Assembly (NCBI RefSeq): GCF_000786105.1
Contig: NZ_JTEV01000012.1
Span: 1-64,000, forward strand
Source of the DNA: Bdellovibrio sp. ArHS
GTDB lineage: Bacteria; Bdellovibrionota; Bdellovibrionia; Bdellovibrionales; Bdellovibrionaceae
Direction of reading: 5' to 3'
Length of the DNA stretch: 64,000 bases
The position numbers and the translations under genes are program-made. Positions 34,753-45,471 of the stretch are shown piece by piece. Positions within the stretch are counted from its first letter, which is position 1. The number at the start of each line of letters is the position of its first letter. The notes under the pieces are model-generated. The model was not told the DNA's origin and did not search any database. It saw nothing but the letters and a program-made list of their open reading frames with translations.

Positions 34753-36735
34753 CTATTCGACAGTTCCTAAACGAATATCTGAATCAAGAACAATGTACAA
34801 TTGGGCTTCTTCCTTAAGACTCCATTGTAAATCGTAAAGCTCACTCTGGCGGGGATACTTCTGCAATAAATCTTTCAGAATTCCCTGCGCGACCAGGCGT
34901 GCATTTTGCCGCAAGCTAGGATTGGTTTTGGTTTGCGGTTTTAAAGTTTCGGCGCGGTACTGCCAAAGCTGCACTTGAAACTGTTCATAGGGATGCAGAG
35001 TGTCCCCCGTTTTTAAAGAAATCTCCTGGAGTGTTTCTAAAGCCTGAGTCAAATCCAAATAGGCTTCCTCGCGCTGACCTTCCATGATGGCTTTGGCCGC
35101 GCGATGAATTTTAATTCGCGCCCACATGAAGTGATAAGGAAACTCGTAAACACCATCTGTTAAGGCTGTGTCTGAGGCCTTTTGCAATAAAGCCAATGTT
35201 TTATCAAAACCGTTTCGACTGCTATGATCGGCTTCGTTAGTGAGATAAGCCTGAACATAATATTTCATCGAATCATACCAAGCCGTCTTTGTCGGATCTT
35301 CCCAGGCGCGTTTCACGCCTAAAACTTCGACCGGAGAATCGGGGTTCGTTGTCAGTCTAAAGCCAATAAAAGGAGACCGGTTGGTGGGGTAAGTTTCCGC
35401 GACGCTCATCCACCATTCTAGTCTTGCCGGGACCATGACGTGCGTGGCAGCGGTGTAAACTTTCGTCGTGGTGCGACCAAAACTGCGGGGGCCCACCAAT
35501 TCATCGGTGTGTCCGCTTAAGCGATTGATAACCCATTGCGCATCGATCTGACCAAAATCTTCCTTCAAGGTGCGGTGCACGTGAGTCAAACGAGCGCGCG
35601 TTTCCAGGGTTTTGTTAAGGCTGTATTCGTAACCTTCGGCACTTGTACTCGGTGCCACGAAATGATTACTTTGACCTAAAAACGTCTGTTTTGATCTGCG
35701 CGCCACGGCCACGGTATTACCGCTGAGTTCGATCGACGCCGCCTCATCTGTTTTTGAGTCAGAAATAAAGAAGGTCCAGGCGCCAAAGCCTTTACGAGTT
35801 TGAATAAGATGAATGGCCTCATTCAAGGTTTTCGCATTCATCAAAATGGTGTGCAAAAGATAAGGAGCTATATCGGAACTGCCATTTTCATAACGGATTT
35901 GTGTTCCTTCTGTTTGCAATTCGTGCAAACTGACCGCCAGTCCGTAATTGTTAATTCCACTGATGCCGCCGGCATAGTGAAGGCCGGCTGACGCCAATCC
36001 CACTGAGGTGATTCCATTCTTTTGTCGGTTGATGATAATCACCTGCTGCGGTTCATAGAATCCCAGAAGGCCGGTATCAAAATTTCGTCCATGAACGAGG
36101 GCTCCATCCTTGGAGCTTGTCGCAGACGCACTGATCCCTGTGCACCCCATTTTTATTGAACGAAGTCCCTGCGCAATCTTCTTAAAAGGTTTTAAGAGAG
36201 CACTGCCCACGAAGTAAGGAGCGCATGATGCAAAAACTTTCATACTTCCTTTGCGTGGATTCTGTTCCAATTGTCTTTGCATAGAGTCGGCAAAAATAGA
36301 AAACTCCACCATATAATTGGTTTCTTCAAATTCTTTCCAGCCCACTTGGCTGCCGGCATCTTTTAAACCGCGATACAGGTTTTTGATTCCAGATTTGAAC
36401 TCTTCTGAAACACTGGATCGGTAGTTATCTAAAACACATTTTTTAACCAGAAGAATCTGATCAAGTTCTTGTGCGGAAAGGCCCGCAAAGGCGCGTGCGA
36501 CTTGAGTCTGAACGCCTTTTAAAACTCCTTTTTCAATTTCAGGCCGTAAAAAGAGGCCGTGATAATACGCCGTCTCGGCAAAGCCACCTTTAAGATCTAA
36601 AACGTGGACTTTATTTTTTGCGCCTTCCGCGCCACAGACAAAATGTTTCTGGCCCTGGAGTTCCCGGATCAGCGTGCAGTCCGCCCAGGTAAGAGCGGGT
36701 GTTAAAAATATCAGAAGGGTTAAGATTTTCTTCAT
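34753..36735 (-). CDS. Peptidase C45 family acyltransferase, extended
   Basis: A 660-residue exported protein (signal peptide to TWA, residue 18) with a C45 core, the family of acyl-CoA:6-aminopenicillanic acid acyltransferase, which self-cleaves before a Cys that becomes the N-terminal nucleophile. The predicted cleavage site is Gly197/Cys198 in KMGCTGISA, followed by the family motif ALVHGRNFDTG and later GISGINNYGLAVS. The N-terminal 197 residues would be the small subunit. About 200 residues beyond the usual end are helical and TPR-like, in line with a binding module. The start overlaps the LysE gene by four bases. It may form or hydrolyse amide bonds in the periplasm. Confidence 0.8.
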   Translation of the reverse strand: MKKILTLLIFLTPALTWADCTLIRELQGQKHFVCGAEGAKNKVHVLDLKGGFAETAYYHGLFLRPEIEKGVLKGVQTQVARAFAGLSAQELDQILLVKKCVLDNYRSSVSEEFKSGIKNLYRGLKDAGSQVGWKEFEETNYMVEFSIFADSMQRQLEQNPRKGSMKVFASCAPYFVGSALLKPFKKIAQGLRSIKMGCTGISASATSSKDGALVHGRNFDTGLLGFYEPQQVIIINRQKNGITSVGLASAGLHYAGGISGINNYGLAVSLHELQTEGTQIRYENGSSDIAPYLLHTILMNAKTLNEAIHLIQTRKGFGAWTFFISDSKTDEAASIELSGNTVAVARRSKQTFLGQSNHFVAPSTSAEGYEYSLNKTLETRARLTHVHRTLKEDFGQIDAQWVINRLSGHTDELVGPRSFGRTTTKVYTAATHVMVPARLEWWMSVAETYPTNRSPFIGFRLTTNPDSPVEVLGVKRAWEDPTKTAWYDSMKYYVQAYLTNEADHSSRNGFDKTLALLQKASDTALTDGVYEFPYHFMWARIKIHRAAKAIMEGQREEAYLDLTQALETLQEISLKTGDTLHPYEQFQVQLWQYRAETLKPQTKTNPSLRQNARLVAQGILKDLLQKYPRQSELYDLQWSLKEEAQLYIVLDSDIRLGTVE

Positions 36736-37310
36736 AGGATCCCCATAGATAAATACGCCGAGAAAGTTAAAAAACCGCAGGCGGCGATGACTTCCAGATG
36801 GCGTAAAATTTGTTTTAAATGGCTTTTAAAATGACTGATAACAAATAGAAGAAGAACGAAGCTGACCAAAAATGCCAATGTGTAAGACAGAGCTCCGATC
36901 AATAATGCCGAGGTGGTTGCAGCTGCCATATTGGAAAAGAGACCCGCATAAATAAATACCAGATGAAAATTGCCCATCGTCAGCAAGAAACTTTTTCTAA
37001 AAGAGGGCGGACGAATCGCGCCTTCTAAAGACGTCGAAGCTTTGGCAGATAGAAGAATCTTGGCGGAATAAAGAATAAGGCAAATGACTGTTAAAATTGT
37101 TAAAAGGATCCGCAGCCATTCTTGTTGCAGCCAGGGACTTTGCAATAAAGCCAAAGCTAAACCGATGTAAATCACATCTCCGACCAGAAAGCCGGCAATG
37201 GACTTCCAAGGCCAAGAGCGTTCAGCGACCAGGCTGCGAATGATATTAAAACTCGCGGGCCCCAAGGCGAATGCCGAGATAAAACCGATCGAGATCAGCC
37301 AAAGAATCAT
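36732..37310 (-). CDS. LysE-family exporter
   Basis: A 192-residue inner-membrane protein of the LysE/RhtB superfamily, which exports amino acids and related small molecules. The N-terminus FALGPASFNIIRSLVAERSWPWKSIAGFLVGDVIYI carries the GP-x-x-x-x-I pattern and the Gly/Asp element of the family, and five to six hydrophobic helices are visible. It overlaps the genes on both sides by four bases, so it is translated together with the GH3 enzyme before it and the C45 enzyme after it. Export of an amino-acid conjugate is a reasonable but unproven guess. Confidence 0.87.
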   Translation of the reverse strand: MILWLISIGFISAFALGPASFNIIRSLVAERSWPWKSIAGFLVGDVIYIGLALALLQSPWLQQEWLRILLTILTVICLILYSAKILLSAKASTSLEGAIRPPSFRKSFLLTMGNFHLVFIYAGLFSNMAAATTSALLIGALSYTLAFLVSFVLLLFVISHFKSHLKQILRHLEVIAACGFLTFSAYLSMGIL

Positions 37311-38821
37311 TGGATTTCTCCGGAAATATTCAAACGCATGAAGTGCAAATATTCTTCAGCTGTTTCAAAAGTCGTCTTTAATTTGAACTGACCACGACTG
37401 CGATTGCTCTCGAAGTATTTTTGCAGGTAGTCCGCGCTCATCACAGAGACTTGGGCTGGCCCCAGAACGCCCACTTCGCGGCAATCTTTGTAGTCTCCGT
37501 TCAGGCGTTTCATTTCCGCATCAAGAGTGGCCGCGACCTCGTCCGCATTGATAGCCGCATGGGCCGGCACAAATAAGGTCCAATGATAAGAGGTCTTGCC
37601 GTTGTTTAAGACCGGTGAAAGAAAGAAGTGGCGTAAATCAACGTTGCGAATGTTTTTGGTGGAAAGATAGCAGTCCAGAATTTCGTCATCAGACACTTTT
37701 TCCGCCGCAAGGTTCATTCCTGTGCTTTTTCTTCCGACGAATTCAAAAACAAGATCCTCGCCGTTTTGCTGGAAGCTGATGACGTCTTTCATACAATAGT
37801 GGATAAGGCCATTGGGAGTGCCGACGTTGATAAAATAGGGAACACCCATCTGGATTTCGTGAAGTCCCAGAGATCTCTTTTCGCCTTCGACCGGAGTGAA
37901 AGAGTAAAGGAGATCGGGGTTAAGAAAATATTTCTGTCTGCCGTTTTGATATTTCTCATAGGGAAGGCCGATGGCGGCTTCTGTGGCTGCGTAGACGCCG
38001 TAGTAGTTCAGTTCATGGCCAACAAGTCTATTAAGTCTTTCGGTGTACTGTTTAATAGGTGTCGCCGCATAGATAAAAACCTTCAGTCGCGGCCAAATTT
38101 CATTGATGGTTTTTTTTCCGGTCTTTTGCAGTATGGCCTCAAAGATACTGATGAGATAGGTAGGAATTCCACTGACAACCTGGATGTCCTGGTGCAGGGA
38201 TTCTTCGATCAGCATGTCGATTTTGCGGTCCCAATTGGAAATCGCCAGAACCTCTTTTGAGGGAAAGGTGGTCTTTGCGAGGGCCTTGGGAACGCGGGTG
38301 CTTAAGATGCCCGAGATATATCCGAATTTAATATTGTTCTGAGTGTAAAGATAGGGATCGGAACCGAAAGTCAGACGACCCACTTTTAGAAAATTGATAT
38401 CCGGTTCCAGCGTACTCATCTTGCTGGCGATCCTTTTTTGGGATTTTAAGAACATGCGGATCATACGCTCGTTGTAGGGAACTCGCTTGCTGTCTTTTCC
38501 TGAAGTTCCAGAAGAAAGGCCGCAGTATTCCACTTTATCTTTAAAGAGAATGTTTTTGTGTCCCGCCGCGATCATATCGACATAAGGGGCGTAGTCATCG
38601 TAATTGTAGACGGGGACGTGCGTGACGAATTCCTCGTAGTTTTTAATGTGCGCCAAGCGAAGGTCTTTATAGATACGCGTGCCGCTCAGCGAGCGCTTCA
38701 TGTTCGTGAAGTTTCTTTCTTGTTTATTTAAAAGATCTTCACGGCTGACGCTCATGTATTGAGAATAGGTCTTTAAGTATTTTTGCCCTAAGCCTCGCAC
38801 GACTGAATCGACCGCAAACAT
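37307..38821 (-). CDS. GH3-family acyl-adenylating enzyme
   Basis: A 504-residue cytoplasmic enzyme of the GH3 family, part of the ANL adenylate-forming superfamily. In plants, GH3 enzymes activate carboxylic acids with ATP and join them to amino acids. The phosphate-binding motif GLSSGTSGKDSKRVPYNE is clear, followed by motifs such as YAATEAAIGLPY and the C-terminal FLSPVLNNGKTSYHW. It is the first gene of the operon with LysE and C45. A strong AAGGAG ribosome site precedes the ATG, and two matched inverted repeats lie upstream. The actual acid and amine are unknown. Confidence 0.87.
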   Translation of the reverse strand: MFAVDSVVRGLGQKYLKTYSQYMSVSREDLLNKQERNFTNMKRSLSGTRIYKDLRLAHIKNYEEFVTHVPVYNYDDYAPYVDMIAAGHKNILFKDKVEYCGLSSGTSGKDSKRVPYNERMIRMFLKSQKRIASKMSTLEPDINFLKVGRLTFGSDPYLYTQNNIKFGYISGILSTRVPKALAKTTFPSKEVLAISNWDRKIDMLIEESLHQDIQVVSGIPTYLISIFEAILQKTGKKTINEIWPRLKVFIYAATPIKQYTERLNRLVGHELNYYGVYAATEAAIGLPYEKYQNGRQKYFLNPDLLYSFTPVEGEKRSLGLHEIQMGVPYFINVGTPNGLIHYCMKDVISFQQNGEDLVFEFVGRKSTGMNLAAEKVSDDEILDCYLSTKNIRNVDLRHFFLSPVLNNGKTSYHWTLFVPAHAAINADEVAATLDAEMKRLNGDYKDCREVGVLGPAQVSVMSADYLQKYFESNRSRGQFKLKTTFETAEEYLHFMRLNISGEIQ

Positions 38822-38884
38822 AAAAAGTCTCCTTCTTGATGGGAGGAATCTATTTCGGTTTAGGTCTTATGTCGCGGAGTTCCC

Positions 38885-38911
38885 TTGACAGGTTTGCGGT
38901 AAAACTGTCGA
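38885..38911. promoter_or_regulatory. Inverted-repeat operator, copy 1
   Basis: TTGACAG-N13-CTGTCGA, 27 bases with 7-base arms (one mismatch). It lies between the divergent GH3 operon (start 38821) and TetR gene (start 38963). The TTGACA half may also serve as a -35 element, with TCGAAT 17 bases later as a poor -10. A matching copy lies exactly 42 bases downstream. Confidence 0.6.
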
Positions 38912-38926
38912 ATTCGCCGACTTCGG

Positions 38927-38953
38927 TTGACAGATTTTAAGGGTTTTTGTCAA
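38927..38953. promoter_or_regulatory. Inverted-repeat operator, copy 2
   Basis: TTGACAG-N13-TTGTCAA, the same 7-13-7 layout as copy 1 and 42 bases (four helical turns) from it. Only the arms are conserved between the copies, while the 13-base centres differ, as expected for a protein-binding site. It ends nine bases before the TetR ATG, so binding would block that promoter. Confidence 0.6.
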
Positions 38954-38962
38954 AATTGCATT

Positions 38963-39466
38963 ATGGCAACACAGTCCAAAGAAGACATCTATTTCGCCGT
39001 CTGCAATGCAATCCTCAAAATGGAAGTGGCGAAGGGTCATCTGGCCTGGACACTTTCAGATATCTCCCGGGAATCGGGAGTCACCCGCTCTCTGATATAT
39101 TACTACTTCGGTAAAGAGAAAAAGACGGCCTTGGAAGAGGCCTATAAGTTTGTGATCGCGAATTTTTGGAATTTTGAACGGACACGGACTATGGGAATTC
39201 GCGATCGTCTGAAGCAGATTCTTGAGGACGTTAAGAAAATGCCCTTTCTTTTTGTGCTCTATTATCTGAACAAAAATAAAGATAGCGAAATTGGAAAAAT
39301 GATCCACGACGCCGAAGCAATGTTGCTGCAGGCTTTGCAGAAAGAGTTTCCGCATTTGAGTGAAACCCAAGTTCTTGAAGTGTATCTGAAAGAGCTGGGG
39401 GCGATCACTTTCCAGCTCCCTTCAGAAAAAGTGGCTGATCTTTTCGAAGACTATATTCGCCGCTAA
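38963..39466 (+). CDS. TetR-family regulator of the GH3/RND locus
   Basis: A 167-residue regulator with an N-terminal TetR helix-turn-helix: TLSDISRESGVTRSLIYYYFGKEKKTAL. The C-terminal ligand domain has no recognisable ligand family. I use ATG 38963; a longer TTG-initiated frame would start inside operator copy 2 and would place the helix-turn-helix unusually far from the N-terminus. It diverges from the GH3 operon and converges on the RND gene, the stops overlapping by four bases. Control of itself and the GH3 operon through the two inverted repeats is likely. Confidence 0.88.
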   Translation: MATQSKEDIYFAVCNAILKMEVAKGHLAWTLSDISRESGVTRSLIYYYFGKEKKTALEEAYKFVIANFWNFERTRTMGIRDRLKQILEDVKKMPFLFVLYYLNKNKDSEIGKMIHDAEAMLLQALQKEFPHLSETQVLEVYLKELGAITFQLPSEKVADLFEDYIRR

Positions 39467-40248
39467 TTGTCCGCAAGAGCCTTCGGTGTAAAGCGGGATG
39501 TCTTAAGTCCCTGATCTAATTTTACACCTGAAATCGCTATTTCAGTGCCGCGGTTGTTTTGGACGTTGCGGATTTTAATTTTTGATGCGCGCCACTTTGT
39601 CGGTGACACTTTTTTATATCCCACAACATCAAGAACTTTGAGCAGCTTTCCTTGCTTGTCATAGCATTCTGATTTCATGGGTAAAAATTCATCAGCTTGG
39701 ATGAAGCTGATAATTTTAGAATAGTTCGGTGAGGTCGAATTCACATCACTTTCGATAAGATAGTATTTCTTTCCCTTCACTTCGACGGTTTTCTTAAGGA
39801 CATTCTGCGCACCTTGTTCGCGATTGAAATCAAAGTCTTCGGTGCTGAGTTCTGAGCCCAGAATACCACCTTGTCCGCTTTCCCCCGTCAGGCGACGGGT
39901 CTGTTTGGAAGAGGGTAGATAGATCCATTTGTCTTCCTGTTCATTTTTTAAAGTGGCTAACAAAGCTGTGCCTTTAAGATCCTGAGGCTTTTGCATGCGC
40001 ACCATCAGATAGTGTTCTTTTTTGCTGGGGCTTAAGCGCCAGATGCGCATCTCGCGTTCTTTGCTGGAGCCGTCGGCTTCGATGATTTTCATTGAAATCT
40101 GCAGTTCCTCATCCTTGGCGCGAAGGCGTTGACTCATCTGCTCGCCGATCTGTTGGACCGTCGGTGCGCCGCTGGGGGATTGCGCAAATGTCGGTGTTGG
40201 TGAGAACGAGATGAAAAGAGCCATAAAGATCGCAGATGCAGTCGCCAT
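39463..40248 (-). CDS. Possible separately translated LolA-like carrier
   Basis: Inside the RND-LolA fusion, ATG 40248 (codon 758) is preceded by AAGGAG at a normal distance and begins a peptide MATASAIFMALFISF...PTFAQ with the look of a cleavable Sec signal. Translation from here would give a 261-residue periplasmic carrier identical to the C-terminus of the fusion. It may be a relic of an ancestral separate gene, or a genuine second product. Confidence 0.45.
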   Translation of the reverse strand: MATASAIFMALFISFSPTPTFAQSPSGAPTVQQIGEQMSQRLRAKDEELQISMKIIEADGSSKEREMRIWRLSPSKKEHYLMVRMQKPQDLKGTALLATLKNEQEDKWIYLPSSKQTRRLTGESGQGGILGSELSTEDFDFNREQGAQNVLKKTVEVKGKKYYLIESDVNSTSPNYSKIISFIQADEFLPMKSECYDKQGKLLKVLDVVGYKKVSPTKWRASKIKIRNVQNNRGTEIAISGVKLDQGLKTSRFTPKALADN

Positions 40249-42519
40249 TATTTTCTCCTTTTTCCACGGTACTGAATTCAAAAGCCACGGGCAACTTTTC
40301 AACAAAGTTGGCAGAAGAATCAAATCACCCACCAGTCCTGCCAGCATGGATAAAAGCATGTAAAATCCAAAGATCCGATTCATGGCAAAATACGAAGCCA
40401 TAAATACTGAAAAGCCAGCCAGTAAAGTCATGCTAGAAATCAAACAGGGATTGCCTTCCCGCCAAAGGGTCTTTTCGATTTCCAATTCACGTGAACGCGG
40501 ATATTTCTTTTGAATCGCGCGCAGTCTTTCCAAAAGATAGACGGTGTTGTTAAATGCCAAACCCAAGGCGATGGAAAAGATGATTGCCACACTGGGTTTG
40601 ATCGGGGTTTGGGATAGAGCCAGGAAGCCCAACAAGGCTGCCGGCGGCACCAGGTTAGGAATACACGCGACCAAGGCCCAACGCACAGAGCGGAAGACGA
40701 AAATCAAAAGCAGACAGATTGCGGCCATGGATTGCCAAAAGCCGAAAATCAGCTCATGCGATAGTTCATTATTCAAATGATGAATTGTTGAACCCATGCC
40801 TGTGATCTCAGTGCTAAGTTCGGGAAACTTTTTTTCAGTTAGATTTTTGATCTTCAAGACCAGTGAATGTAATTCATTACCGGGAAGATCTTGGGTGCGA
40901 ACCGAAATGCGAGTGTTTGACGAGTCCGTATTTAAGAAATTTTTCAGTGGACTGTTGCTAGATAGCGAGTACAGGAAAAAAACTTCTGCTGTCGAAGAGC
41001 GACTGGCGGGCAGACGCGAATGATGCAGGTTTGCCGCCGCCACCAGATCGGGCAATCCCACGACACTACCCACTCCTGGCAGGGCGCGAATGTCGGAAAG
41101 ATGCTGATCCAGGCGGGCTAATAAGGTGGGGTCGTTCCACGTCTCTGGCGAGCCCTTAAGTTCAATGTCGATAGGAATCATCCCACCCAATTCTTTATCA
41201 ATGGTCTCTGTGGAAAGACGTACTTGGTGATTGGCGGGAAGGTCGTCAAAAAGACGAGCCGACCAGGACAGACTTTGTCCTTTGATGGCCAGGGCCGACG
41301 AGACAAGAATGATCAGGAAGGCCCACACTCCAGAACGTCGGAACAAATAGAGTCCCCAGCGCGCACGACTCCAGGCCCACTGGCGAGCTCGGGGACCCGG
41401 CAGAAAGTGCAGCATCGGGAAAAGAAGCAAGGTCGTCACAACCCAGCCTGTCGTGATAGAAATGGCGGCCGTGATTCCGTAGTCCCGGATCAGAGGGACT
41501 TTCACAGTCAGTAAAGCTAGGAAGCCGATCATGGTGGTCATTGAGGCAATGAAGTTTGGTCCTAACAAGGTTTTGAAGGTGTAAGTGACCAGTTCATTAT
41601 GGGTCGCGTGCGGCTGATTTTTACGTTCTTCTGTGTATCTTAAGAGCGTGTGGATACACAGCGATACCACATCGACCGTTGTCAGGATGGGGATCGTGCT
41701 GGATAGAATTGAAAACGGGTAGCCAGCCAACGCCATGATCGCTAGAACGATGATATTTGCGCAGAGGATGACGATAAACGAAATAATCAAAGGTGACCAA
41801 TTAGAGAAAATTAAACCCAAGACAATGAAACAGGCCAAAAAACCCAAGACCACAAAGTTGCGAATTTCTGTCTGAAGAAGAACACCCACGTCCGTCTGTA
41901 CCGCCGGAGTTCCGCCGATCTCCACTTTTGAAAACGGCACCGCAGCGTTGGCAGTGACCTCAAGATTCTGGCGCAGATGCAGAATCTCAGTCGTGTTGAG
42001 AGCTTTGACATTCACAATGACTGAAGCAGTTCTGCCATCTTTCGATATCAAAGTCGGTGAGATGAGGGGATTGTTGGTGGTCTCTTTTTGCCATTGTTCG
42101 GTGGGAAGATTTTTTAACAACGGCCCCACACTTAGACCATGGTCGCTACTGAGTGCGCCTTGAACCGTGGCCAGACTGAGAGTGTTTTTAACTCCTGGAA
42201 AGTGCGCCAAGAGTTCTGTGAGTCTTTCTAGGCTTTGAATTTTATCTTTTTCAAACCAGGTCTCGCTAGGATGGGAAATCTTTGCTGTAATGATGAACGG
42301 TTGTGAATCTGGAAGTTGAAAAAGCTGTCTTGTATGTTCGTCTCTCTTCAAGAGTGGATTATCCTGAGGAAGAAACTGCTTTAAGCTGTACTGCGTTTGC
42401 AATTTAGGAAGAGCAAAGAGGCTTAATAAGGTAATCACAAAAACTAAAAGCAAAGTTGAAATGGAGATTCTTTTGACGGAATCAGGGAAGTTTGTTTTTT
42501 CCAATTTCGGTTTCTTCAT
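39463..42519 (-). CDS. RND/MMPL exporter fused to a LolA-like domain
   Basis: A 1018-residue protein. Residues 1 to about 750 are an MMPL/RND exporter of the HAE3/hydrophobe type: two hydrophobic blocks, each preceded by a periplasmic loop, with phrases such as LVLAIMALAGYPFSILSS-like segments and TVYLLERLRAIQKKYPRSR in the second block. Residues about 785-1018 match the outer-membrane-lipoprotein-sorting protein family (COG2834, LolA/LolB-like): EMRIWRLSPSKKEHYLMVRM, EQEDKWIYLPSSKQTRRL, KWRASKIKIRNV. In most bacteria these two parts are separate adjacent genes. Here they are joined in frame through a stretch that still contains a ribosome site, ATG 40248 and a signal-peptide-like sequence. 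Function: export of lipids or hydrophobic molecules across the periplasm, inferred. Confidence 0.85.
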   Translation of the reverse strand: MKKPKLEKTNFPDSVKRISISTLLLVFVITLLSLFALPKLQTQYSLKQFLPQDNPLLKRDEHTRQLFQLPDSQPFIITAKISHPSETWFEKDKIQSLERLTELLAHFPGVKNTLSLATVQGALSSDHGLSVGPLLKNLPTEQWQKETTNNPLISPTLISKDGRTASVIVNVKALNTTEILHLRQNLEVTANAAVPFSKVEIGGTPAVQTDVGVLLQTEIRNFVVLGFLACFIVLGLIFSNWSPLIISFIVILCANIIVLAIMALAGYPFSILSSTIPILTTVDVVSLCIHTLLRYTEERKNQPHATHNELVTYTFKTLLGPNFIASMTTMIGFLALLTVKVPLIRDYGITAAISITTGWVVTTLLLFPMLHFLPGPRARQWAWSRARWGLYLFRRSGVWAFLIILVSSALAIKGQSLSWSARLFDDLPANHQVRLSTETIDKELGGMIPIDIELKGSPETWNDPTLLARLDQHLSDIRALPGVGSVVGLPDLVAAANLHHSRLPASRSSTAEVFFLYSLSSNSPLKNFLNTDSSNTRISVRTQDLPGNELHSLVLKIKNLTEKKFPELSTEITGMGSTIHHLNNELSHELIFGFWQSMAAICLLLIFVFRSVRWALVACIPNLVPPAALLGFLALSQTPIKPSVAIIFSIALGLAFNNTVYLLERLRAIQKKYPRSRELEIEKTLWREGNPCLISSMTLLAGFSVFMASYFAMNRIFGFYMLLSMLAGLVGDLILLPTLLKSCPWLLNSVPWKKEKIMATASAIFMALFISFSPTPTFAQSPSGAPTVQQIGEQMSQRLRAKDEELQISMKIIEADGSSKEREMRIWRLSPSKKEHYLMVRMQKPQDLKGTALLATLKNEQEDKWIYLPSSKQTRRLTGESGQGGILGSELSTEDFDFNREQGAQNVLKKTVEVKGKKYYLIESDVNSTSPNYSKIISFIQADEFLPMKSECYDKQGKLLKVLDVVGYKKVSPTKWRASKIKIRNVQNNRGTEIAISGVKLDQGLKTSRFTPKALADN

Positions 42520-42589
42520 CAGTTGTCTTCTTTCGATTCTTTTTTAACAAGTGCTTTAGAAAATTGGGGATAAGCCGTATTCTACAAAC

Positions 42590-44131
42590 ATGAAGATGGG
42601 AAACACGATGAGAAAATCTAAATCAAGCTTGATAACGACAAAGGGCCTAGTTGCATCACTGTTTACATTGTTCTTCTCCTTTGAAGCTCTTTCAGTTTCG
42701 CAAATTAACTCAGAATTTCAATTAGCACTTCCTAGACAGTTTCAAGAAAATTTGATTGCGAAAAAATGGGAAACCCTCGTGAATCAAGAGTTTCAAGGGA
42801 ATTGGCAATTTCCTGATCAGGAAATTGCCGCTCAAGATGTTCCTGTAAAAATAAAAAACATTTCTTTGAAAGTTCTGACTCATCTGGAGAAACCAGCGCT
42901 GCAGCCTCAGCAAACGTCTTTACTGTTAATGTCTAAAGATCTGAAAGCGCAACTCGTGATTGGTGAAGTGAGTGTTGACCATATTGTCGAAAGAGTGGTC
43001 GGTGGAATCGTCGGTCGTTTTCGCGTTCAAGCCTCTTGTAAAAATGTGTCTCTGATAATGAAGCCAGGGCAAGGCTCGATGTCCCTGGCGCTGCGGCCCT
43101 CGGTGGGGGCGAACACTGCGTCGGCCGTCGTTCAGGAAGTCCGAGTGGCCTGGGCGCCGGGAAGTTGGAATTCAGAGGGTATCCACTGTGAAGGTGTCGA
43201 AGGATTTGCCGATTTATTGAAAACTGAGATCGATAAAATGGCCAACGATTCAGAGAGTTTCATTCAACCTAAAAAAGACCTCATTAAGAAATATGTGGAA
43301 AGCTACCTGCAAGATCTAAAGTTGGATTTTTCCAGTCCACGTCAGTTGATTGTGTCTCGTCCTGATATTCGTGTCTTAATGAAGGTGGATCAATATACGG
43401 ACCAAGGCGAAGCGGGCGCCCTGGTGCAAGGTCATCTGCAGATTGAGTTTTTAAAATCCCCTGACGAGGAAGTTACAAATCTGACTTTATCACCCGGGTC
43501 GATGGTGGGGGGAGGCGCTGAGGCGCAGATTCTTTTACCTAAGGATTTCGTCAAACAAGTTCTGGCAAAAGCGTATTCGGCCAATGCCTGGCTTCATCAA
43601 ATCACTTCTGATAAGCTGCCGGGTTTTAGCAGTCTGATGAATTCGCGATTTCTGCAGTTTTTTGTCTGGCCGGCCTTGCGCGACTATGCAAAATCAACAA
43701 AGTTTCTCTTTGAAGTCTATTCAAACAAAGACATGGAGATTCAGGGCGCGGGCCTGCAGTATCAGGTCAAAGCCAACATGTATTCACGCATGCGGGCCCC
43801 TCGCTCGGGCGCTTATGTGCCTTTTGTGAACTGGTCTGTTCCCTTAAATTCAAAAATCAATTTGCAGATTGCAAACGGCAAGGCCTCTGCCACTTTCATT
43901 AATCCGACCCTGGGTTTGACGCCTTATTATGATGCTTCCTATGTCGCTAAGTACTCACCGAACCGACGCATATTGTATGGAACGATTCGGGATAAAGTCC
44001 TTGCCGGTATCTGGGGTAAAACCTTGTCTTTTGAGATCCCTCAGCTTCCGCTTATGGAAGGGGTCAGTTTAAAAGTGAAGAAGGTGTTGGCTCCGGCAAA
44101 TCAGGATTTGATATTGCAGTTGGCGCCTTAA
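42590..44131 (+). CDS. Large secreted protein of unknown function
   Basis: A 513-residue exported protein with no family I can name. A basic N-terminus and hydrophobic core (GLVASLFTLFFSFEAL) form a signal peptide ending near SVS. The mature part is beta-rich, with two similar-looking stretches, each with a long amphipathic sheet followed by a helix. That layout would fit a tubular lipid-binding (BPI-like) fold, but this is speculation. ATG codons at 42590, 42596 and 42608 are possible; the last gives the shortest signal peptide. It diverges from the RND-LolA gene by 70 bases and overlaps the convergent outer-membrane gene by four, consistent with an accessory role in the export locus. Confidence 0.75.
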   Translation: MKMGNTMRKSKSSLITTKGLVASLFTLFFSFEALSVSQINSEFQLALPRQFQENLIAKKWETLVNQEFQGNWQFPDQEIAAQDVPVKIKNISLKVLTHLEKPALQPQQTSLLLMSKDLKAQLVIGEVSVDHIVERVVGGIVGRFRVQASCKNVSLIMKPGQGSMSLALRPSVGANTASAVVQEVRVAWAPGSWNSEGIHCEGVEGFADLLKTEIDKMANDSESFIQPKKDLIKKYVESYLQDLKLDFSSPRQLIVSRPDIRVLMKVDQYTDQGEAGALVQGHLQIEFLKSPDEEVTNLTLSPGSMVGGGAEAQILLPKDFVKQVLAKAYSANAWLHQITSDKLPGFSSLMNSRFLQFFVWPALRDYAKSTKFLFEVYSNKDMEIQGAGLQYQVKANMYSRMRAPRSGAYVPFVNWSVPLNSKINLQIANGKASATFINPTLGLTPYYDASYVAKYSPNRRILYGTIRDKVLAGIWGKTLSFEIPQLPLMEGVSLKVKKVLAPANQDLILQLAP

Positions 44132-45471
44132 AAAGAGCGGGACAGTGTGAGGGTGTAGGAGTCATTCTTCTCATAGACTCCTAGCGGTGTTTCGCTGGAT
44201 CCTTGAATCAGGCTGGCGGTGAGGCTCAAGTTCCACGCGTCCCAAAAGCGTCGAGTCAGTGTCAGTTCTTCGTAGTTGCTGCCGTGAAGCCCATCATACA
44301 GACCCAAGAGCGAGAAGTTCCAAACCTCTTTCCAGGAAAGACGGCCGCCGATCATCCAGGCATCGCGAAAAATTTCCGTGGTTGATAGGTTTGAATCGTT
44401 TTCCTTTTCCGTCGTGATAAAGGACTTCTGTAAGACAGCAATCAAAAGACCACTTTCGCCGAAAGTGAAAGTTTTTTCCAGACCCATGACGTTTTCAAAA
44501 GTCCACTTTTGCAAATAAGGACTTTCCGTGATGCTGCTGGTATAGCTGCTGGCGAGTTTAAACAACGTGTCCCAAGAATTCGCAACCATCGTCACTCCCC
44601 CTTGGCGGATACGATAGTTTGTGACGTTCAGCGTGACATCCGGGTCCACGCGGACCACGGTTTTGGGTGAAACTGAAACGATGGTGCCGGTAACCACGGG
44701 TTGTATCAATGGGAAAGCGGCCACGCCTTCAAAGTAGCTGAGTCCGAAGTCGAAGGTGTTTCCCCGCCGCTGAATGCGAAAGGCGTAGTTGTTCTTCAGA
44801 GCGTCGTCCAACTCGTCCTTGCTGCCATAGCTGTAGTTGAGTCTTTCAGGGAGCAGAAGCAGTAGGTCGTTTTCTGGAGTTTGCGGAACGAAGATCTCGC
44901 GCGGCAACCAGCGACTTTGTTCACCAGGTAGGACGGCGCCCTGACGAGTCGGAATATAAACCAGCTCGTAATCCCAGTTGTCAAAGTTTTGCGACCACAC
45001 CACCGAAGGGGTGCCCATTTTGCGGCTGTGTAAAGGATCGAAATATTGCTTCGAGTTCACCACATCCAAAGGGTTGTAACCGTCCGTCACGCCCCAGGTA
45101 AAAAGATTATAACCGGCTTGCAGAGAAGATGTTTCGGTTTGATAGCGCAGAAAGGCTTCGCCAGGATCGAAGAAATATTTTTCCGTTTCGGATTTGTTAT
45201 TGGGATTGGCGATGAAGGTCGGCTTTACAAAAAAGCGCACATTGTCCAGATAGCGCCAGTCATAGATAGGGTCCAGTTCAAGTTTATATAAGTCCTGATT
45301 GGTTTCTGAACCATATTCTTGTGCGAAATAGACCGCATCCAGTTTTGTATCGATGTGCAGACTCCACTCCGTTTTGCGTTTGGCCTGCGTCGGAAGAGTC
45401 AGCAATAGAATAAGAACAACACCCAATATCTTCATCGAAGTTGATGATAACCATAGCTTTCCTGTTTTCAC
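44128..45471 (-). CDS. Outer-membrane beta-barrel protein
   Basis: A 447-residue outer-membrane protein. A signal peptide (cleavage near PTQA-KR) is followed by long runs of alternating hydrophobic and polar residues and many aromatic residues at strand ends. The last residue is Phe (TLTLSRSF), the signal recognised by the barrel-assembly machinery. The general layout, with WGVTDGYNPLDVVNSKQYFDPL near residue 130, recalls DUF1302-type barrels, which in other bacteria lie next to RND/MMPL exporters and LolA-like genes. That supports a shared export or lipid-transfer role. Confidence 0.78.
   Translation of the reverse strand: MKTGKLWLSSTSMKILGVVLILLLTLPTQAKRKTEWSLHIDTKLDAVYFAQEYGSETNQDLYKLELDPIYDWRYLDNVRFFVKPTFIANPNNKSETEKYFFDPGEAFLRYQTETSSLQAGYNLFTWGVTDGYNPLDVVNSKQYFDPLHSRKMGTPSVVWSQNFDNWDYELVYIPTRQGAVLPGEQSRWLPREIFVPQTPENDLLLLLPERLNYSYGSKDELDDALKNNYAFRIQRRGNTFDFGLSYFEGVAAFPLIQPVVTGTIVSVSPKTVVRVDPDVTLNVTNYRIRQGGVTMVANSWDTLFKLASSYTSSITESPYLQKWTFENVMGLEKTFTFGESGLLIAVLQKSFITTEKENDSNLSTTEIFRDAWMIGGRLSWKEVWNFSLLGLYDGLHGSNYEELTLTRRFWDAWNLSLTASLIQGSSETPLGVYEKNDSYTLTLSRSF

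Follow-up and report, generated by a model that had tools for sequence, protein, structure and literature searches.

A TetR/GH3-LysE-C45 gene cassette of Bdellovibrio and related bacteria: a candidate regulon for the synthesis, export and periplasmic processing of an N-acyl amide

Why should an acid-activating enzyme, an amino acid-type exporter and a secreted amidase or acyltransferase be encoded by overlapping genes, and does a lipid exporter encoded next to them belong to the same system? The question is raised by a 64,000-nt stretch of Bdellovibrio sp. ArHS (NZ_JTEV01000012.1, positions 1 to 64,000; hereafter the window), in which the C45, LysE and GH3 genes all lie on the (-) strand, neighbours overlapping by exactly 4 bases (36732-36735 and 37307-37310), and GH3 is faced by a divergent TetR gene on the (+) strand. 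An earlier note on this DNA proposed that the operon, together with an adjoining RND-LolA exporter, makes and exports an acyl amide. As a result of our analysis, TetR and GH3-LysE-C45 are recognized as a discrete cassette, and its GH3, LysE and C45 proteins almost certainly act in one pathway. We consider it reasonably probable that they constitute a TetR-controlled three-enzyme regulon by which an N-acyl amide is made in the cytosol, exported and processed in the periplasm. The RND-LolA exporter appears to be part of a separate module. The gene positions, strands, overlaps and facing TetR gene given in the earlier note were confirmed, and the families score above the curated Pfam and NCBIfam cut-offs by which all family matches were judged; only the start of TetR had to be moved. 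The cassette comprises the following features:

37307..38821, (-) strand: GH3-type acyl-acid amido synthetase, 504 amino acids, first gene of the operon (PF03321, GH3_C, motifs)
36732..37310, (-) strand: LysE-type exporter, 192 amino acids, six hydrophobic segments (PF01810, hydropathy)
34753..36735, (-) strand: secreted C45-type N-terminal nucleophile (Ntn) amidohydrolase/acyltransferase (NF040521, structure model)
36142..36144, (-) strand: codon of Cys198 of C45, the predicted nucleophile, after Gly197 (conserved in 27/27, structural register)
38885..38911, no strand: predicted operator O1, TTGACAG-N13-CTGTCGA (one mismatch to the palindrome)
38927..38953, no strand: predicted operator O2, TTGACAG-N13-TTGTCAA (one mismatch; 42 bp from O1)
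38963..39466, (+) strand: TetR-type regulator of the cassette, ATG start (TetR_N)

Cassette-type GH3 (at least 328 bits, against 203 for the next match) and cassette-type C45 (at least 389 bits, against 277) are confined to exactly the same 27 of the 369 genomes of the phylum that were surveyed. Among 24 Bdellovibrio genomes, 14 encode a full-length GH3 and the identical 14 encode C45. The remaining carriers belong to another genus of the family (one genome), another family of the order (one genome), and the families f12 (seven genomes), f28 (three genomes) and f26 (one genome). The gene order GH3-LysE-C45 is maintained across families, and recurrence of the set in 27 genomes of several families is beyond chance. 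Conservation in relatives, the check named in the earlier note, is thus found.

The 27 cassette GH3s form one clade against the remaining GH3s of the phylum (support 100/100), and their branching matches the taxonomy, so that old vertical descent with losses is the likely history of the cassette. The GH3 of the window, present as a single copy in the source genome, is 79-82% identical to its homologues in B. bacteriovorus kdesi and two Bdellovibrio metagenome-assembled genomes. Outside the phylum, seven GH3 matches with 21-25% identity were obtained from a plasmid collection; the two with usable annotation have neither LysE nor C45 as a neighbour, and two others lack annotated genes at that place. 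The C45 query gave one weak match.

The spacer between TetR and GH3 contains blocks that are invariant across the 14 Bdellovibrio genomes and form an interrupted palindrome, TTGACAG-N13-CTGTCAA. Its two copies, O1 and O2, are the sole sites with two or fewer mismatches in the window, and such sites were seen once in shuffled windows (five x 64 kb). A palindrome site is located within 250 bp upstream of GH3 in all 27 cassettes, and in 25 of them it has at most two mismatches. Sites of this kind also accompany genes that have left the operon. The genome G016 retains all genes on three separate contigs (GH3 with TetR, LysE, and C45); here, a two-mismatch site ends about 60 bp upstream of the LysE start, and two three-mismatch sites, 41 bp apart, immediately precede the C45 frame. 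A perfect site is found upstream of the divergent C45 gene of G360, and a two-mismatch site upstream of C45 in G364, where the gene is on another contig. The sharing of operators, even by relocated LysE and C45 genes, argues that TetR, GH3, LysE and C45 form one regulon. Together with the identical distribution and a LysE-C45 fusion described below, it bears out the claim of the earlier note that the three operon genes are functionally joined.

The TetR protein scores 25.6 bits against TetR_N (cut-off 24), and a relative of it is encoded beside the cassette in 24 of the 27 genomes. Its open reading frame had been started at the TTG at 38927, but this codon falls within the conserved O2, which makes the ATG at 38963 the likelier start. 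With a helix-turn-helix domain and O1/O2 at its own divergent promoter, the protein has the predicted features of a TetR-type local repressor. A large TetR regulon is not supported, as a scan of genome G000 with up to two mismatches gave 11 sites against 11 in the reversed control, which is the background level. Scans with at most one mismatch yielded extra sites in G079, G081, G083 and G361, all upstream of unrelated genes. The G361 site (L219 1501-1527), a single case, is a one-mismatch operator 64 bp upstream of an alpha/beta-hydrolase gene, and the reversed-pattern control of this genome yielded as many matches; OlsI, partner of the enzyme OlsH considered below, likewise belongs to the alpha/beta-hydrolase superfamily.

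What could such a regulon make? The first enzyme scores 92.7 bits against PF03321 and 29.4 against GH3_C (cut-off 23.6 for each), whereas the GH3_M score of 23.2 is slightly below its cut-off of 23.6. The nucleotide motifs SSGTSGKDSK, YAATE and HYCMKD are retained by GH3s of the cassette clade, and the core residues of the three nucleotide-binding motifs, as defined in PMC12493201, are invariant across 19 divergent GH3s. The best solved structural relatives are plant GH3s. Plant enzymes such as JAR1 and GH3.12 have the same domain set and adenylation motifs but differ in their low identity to the cassette GH3, their plant hormone substrates and the lack of an exporter or amidase partner. Family membership and motifs fit ATP-dependent amide formation as the predicted activity.

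Although bacterial GH3s are widespread, the only characterised one found in the literature searched is OlsH of Singulisphaera acidiphila, a lyso-ornithine lipid synthetase that makes N-acyl ornithine and has as partners OlsI, a separate acyltransferase, and OlsG (PMC12493201). Both OlsH and the cassette protein are bacterial GH3s with nucleotide motifs, and OlsH uses ATP to link a fatty acid and an amino acid in an amide; the cassette GH3 lacks the OlsI/OlsG operon and is instead accompanied by LysE, C45 and TetR. Identity with OlsH was rejected on these neighbours and on a score of 181.9 bits against an equivalog cut-off of 620 (NF052613). Other cassette GH3s score 128-159 bits on this model, and up to 349 bits are attained by another GH3 subgroup of the phylum. 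The distant relationship to OlsH (E 1.7e-53) suggests an amino-lipid assembly split by the membrane, in which GH3 would form an OlsH-like lyso-amino-lipid, LysE would flip it, and C45 would be the second, periplasmic acyltransferase, just as OlsH works ahead of a separate acyltransferase; C45 has an acyltransferase as its closest relative of solved structure. We regard this as unlikely, given the low OlsH score, the absence of OlsI and OlsG neighbours, and the fact that acyl-CoA is not expected in the periplasm. Furthermore, an OlsB-family GNAT protein (PF13444) is encoded in 23 of the 24 Bdellovibrio genomes irrespective of the cassette. Ornithine lipids are therefore probably synthesized via this OlsB-family enzyme elsewhere in these genomes, which are unlikely to depend on the cassette alone for amino lipids.

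The C45 protein consists of a signal peptide, a pro-region, an Ntn domain and a C-terminal helical domain of about 180 amino acids (about 481-660), and it scores 37.5 bits against AAT/C45 (cut-off 23.2) and 100.4 against NF040521 (cut-off 85). Its structure model (mean predicted local distance difference test, pLDDT, 89.2) superposes on isopenicillin N acyltransferase 2x1c over 331 residues (VIA Z 35.2, root-mean-square deviation 2.7), with VIA Z scores of 28.6 to NAAA and 27.6 to acid ceramidase; the C-terminal helical domain is outside the superposed core. Cys198 is the first aligned residue relative to the mature chains of NAAA, acid ceramidase and penicillin V acylase, and ten residues are identical in all 27 C45 proteins (Lys195, Gly197, Cys198, Arg217, Asn218, Asp220, Asn262, Asn357, Arg417 and Arg421). 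The protein thus models as a secreted enzyme of the isopenicillin-N-acyltransferase/NAAA type with an invariant Gly-Cys, for which self-cleavage at Gly197/Cys198 and amide hydrolysis or transfer are predicted. The fold, pro-region and Gly-Cys nucleophile are those of isopenicillin N acyltransferase, NAAA and acid ceramidase (C45/C89 Ntn enzymes), whereas the signal peptide, the extra C-terminal domain, the operon with GH3 and LysE, and the one exporter fusion set the cassette enzyme apart. Since its structural relatives act on acyl amides, the GH3 product would fit as a substrate. C45 enzymes with the long architecture are also encoded in genomes that lack the cassette GH3 (G344, G305, G152, G185 and G068; L150-L154), so this enzyme type has other roles too.

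Another possible use for a synthetase and an amidase under common control, one on either side of the membrane, is acid efflux by conjugation: GH3 would tie a harmful acid to an amino acid, LysE would export the conjugate, and C45 would free the amino acid for re-uptake, amounting to TetR-induced, ATP-driven acid export. This scheme accounts for the pairing of synthetase and amidase, for a TetR gene beside an exporter and for the C45-exporter fusion; yet the literature searched yielded no description of such a cycle, and the C45 fold points to acyl amides generally and to no particular acid, so we hold it to be quite unlikely.

In about 25 of the 27 cassettes, LysE lies directly behind GH3 or forms one protein with C45; one of these cassettes (G364) has a LysE recognized only by its position and a PPGPA motif. 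Homologues that match PF01810 score 28-32 bits, and two divergent ones give no match. In the genome G336, LysE and C45 are joined in a single frame of 811 amino acids. Residues 7-172 correspond to LysE (31% identical to the LysE of another cassette, E 1e-17) and residues 380-559 to the C45/AAT domain, and the mature start of C45 follows immediately on the final hydrophobic segment of the carrier. Because C45 has a signal peptide where it is encoded separately, this fusion would place the enzyme where the carrier releases its substrate.

Putting the components together, the N-acyl amide regulon would operate as follows. In the cytoplasm, GH3 would use ATP to activate a carboxylic acid and join it to an amine; the acid is probably a fatty acid and the amine probably an amino acid. 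The LysE-type carrier would take this amide, and not a free amino acid, across the inner membrane. Once self-cleaved at Gly197/Cys198, C45 would hydrolyse the periplasmic amide or pass its acyl group to another acceptor. TetR would bind the two 27-bp operators upstream of GH3 and of its own gene and so tune the supply, presumably sensing the product or the acid as feedback. The made-and-exported acyl amide of the earlier note is compatible with all three families, whereas its "exporter side" is unsupported.

Several points weigh against this scheme. The substrates of GH3, LysE and C45 are assigned by family, and we infer the binding of TetR to O1/O2 from the conserved operators. The correlation between GH3 and C45 distances (r = 0.97 over the 27 genomes), which speaks for the scheme, is uncorrected for shared ancestry. 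The LysE of the window exceeds the PF01810 cut-off by a narrow margin (27.5 bits vs 25.6), and no LysE of the window type is detectable in G361. C45 could act on a compound other than the GH3 product, and if it only hydrolysed that product, the GH3-C45 cycle would look futile. Finally, LysE carriers and their relatives export free amino acids. Their activity is what would be expected if the genes balanced amino acids and had no dedicated product, LysE exporting a surplus and GH3 consuming the amino acids that C45 sets free from acyl amides of the prey. The LysE-C45 fusion and the one-to-one retention with GH3 point instead to a shared substrate, and we judge such a balancing role improbable.

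Does the adjoining exporter take part in the N-acyl amide pathway? Three further genes are located beyond TetR:

39463-42519, (-) strand: RND-LolA gene (LolA_like, MMPL)
42590-44131, (+) strand: secreted protein, 513 amino acids, BPI-like (no Pfam match)
44128-45471, (-) strand: barrel (signal peptide and C-terminal Phe, read directly)

The RND-LolA protein scores 143.7 bits against LolA_like (cut-off 30) and 79.3 against MMPL (cut-off 20.5), and it is below the cut-offs of the named NCBIfam subfamilies (HpnN, 38 vs 752; BstA, 17 vs 1400; HAE3, 157 vs 352). The secreted protein, encoded between RND and the barrel, gives a Foldseek probability of 1.0 to LBP/BPI/CETP and a VIA Z of 11.4 to BPI over its N-terminal half, from a weak model (pLDDT only 52); it could be a two-domain TULIP lipid-binding protein of the BPI/LBP/CETP type. 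The barrel protein has no Pfam or NCBIfam match. A periplasmic lipid-shuttle module of RND-LolA, BPI-like protein and barrel is plausible, and the module probably serves lipid transport.

Near full-length RND-LolA matches were found in 22 of the 24 Bdellovibrio genomes regardless of the cassette, which is present in 14, and the secreted protein in the same 22. Five cassette-free genomes have the same flanking genes around an empty site; in G019, about 8 bp separate the RND gene from the solute-binding gene, and the 648 bp between the two in G014 are filled by another open frame (L172 11891-12537), which reads like a candidate small methyltransferase. Conversely, the cassette is far from the module in G010, and no module lies alongside it in G033, G079 and families f12, f26 and f28. 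The best operator-like sites upstream of the RND, secreted protein and barrel genes have five or six mismatches, which is the background level. The adjacency is therefore best read as an insertion or deletion site, and the three genes appear to be a module separate from the cassette. A joint synthesis-and-export locus including RND-LolA, the secreted protein and the barrel, as the earlier note had linked them, was rejected because of the independent occurrence, the empty sites and the missing operator. It could draw on adjacency in about ten Bdellovibrio genomes and on a GH3-RND pairing in another GH3 subgroup, and we rate it as very improbable. That subgroup, separate and partly OlsH-like, belongs to family f12; in four genomes its GH3 shares an operon with an MMPL/RND gene, and in a fifth a GH3 adjoins barrel-LolA-RND (L155, L157-L160 for all five). 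The RND proteins beside these GH3s are only about 22% identical to that of the window, and the neighbourhood is a possible second link between GH3 and lipid export. In family f4, GH3 adjoins a 633-amino-acid beta-ketoacyl-ACP synthase III-like/haem-oxygenase-like fusion; its domains were tested in L045, and the protein of L163 begins with a similar sequence.

The N-acyl amide regulon also has parallels in logic. In the colibactin (ClbM/ClbP) and pyoverdine (PvdQ) pathways, a cytosolic acyl amide is exported and then cut by a periplasmic deacylase. The likeness goes no further, as the enzyme families are all different and the cassette has no non-ribosomal peptide synthetase. Neither the gene set nor the operator nor the carrier-enzyme fusion was found described in the open-access literature searched, in agreement with the earlier note, which knew of no system with this set; the paper on OlsH (PMC12493201) makes no mention of Bdellovibrio, C45 or LysE. 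The individual families are already known, and, as far as the open-access literature shows, their combination, the predicted operator and the fusion appear to be new. We tentatively suggest that the cassette is an undescribed phylum-wide small-molecule system, in which an amide made by GH3 under TetR control is exported by LysE and activated or turned over in the periplasm by an isopenicillin-N-acyltransferase-like enzyme.

Since GH3 is accompanied here by a carrier, an extracytoplasmic enzyme and a regulator with a probable operator sequence, its product should be findable by simple genetics. Should this product prove to be an acyl amide that is secreted or located at the surface, it would bear on predator signalling, self-protection or membrane alteration, and the cassette, if the proposal is true, would be a new signalling, prodrug or surface-modification pathway in predatory and related bacteria.

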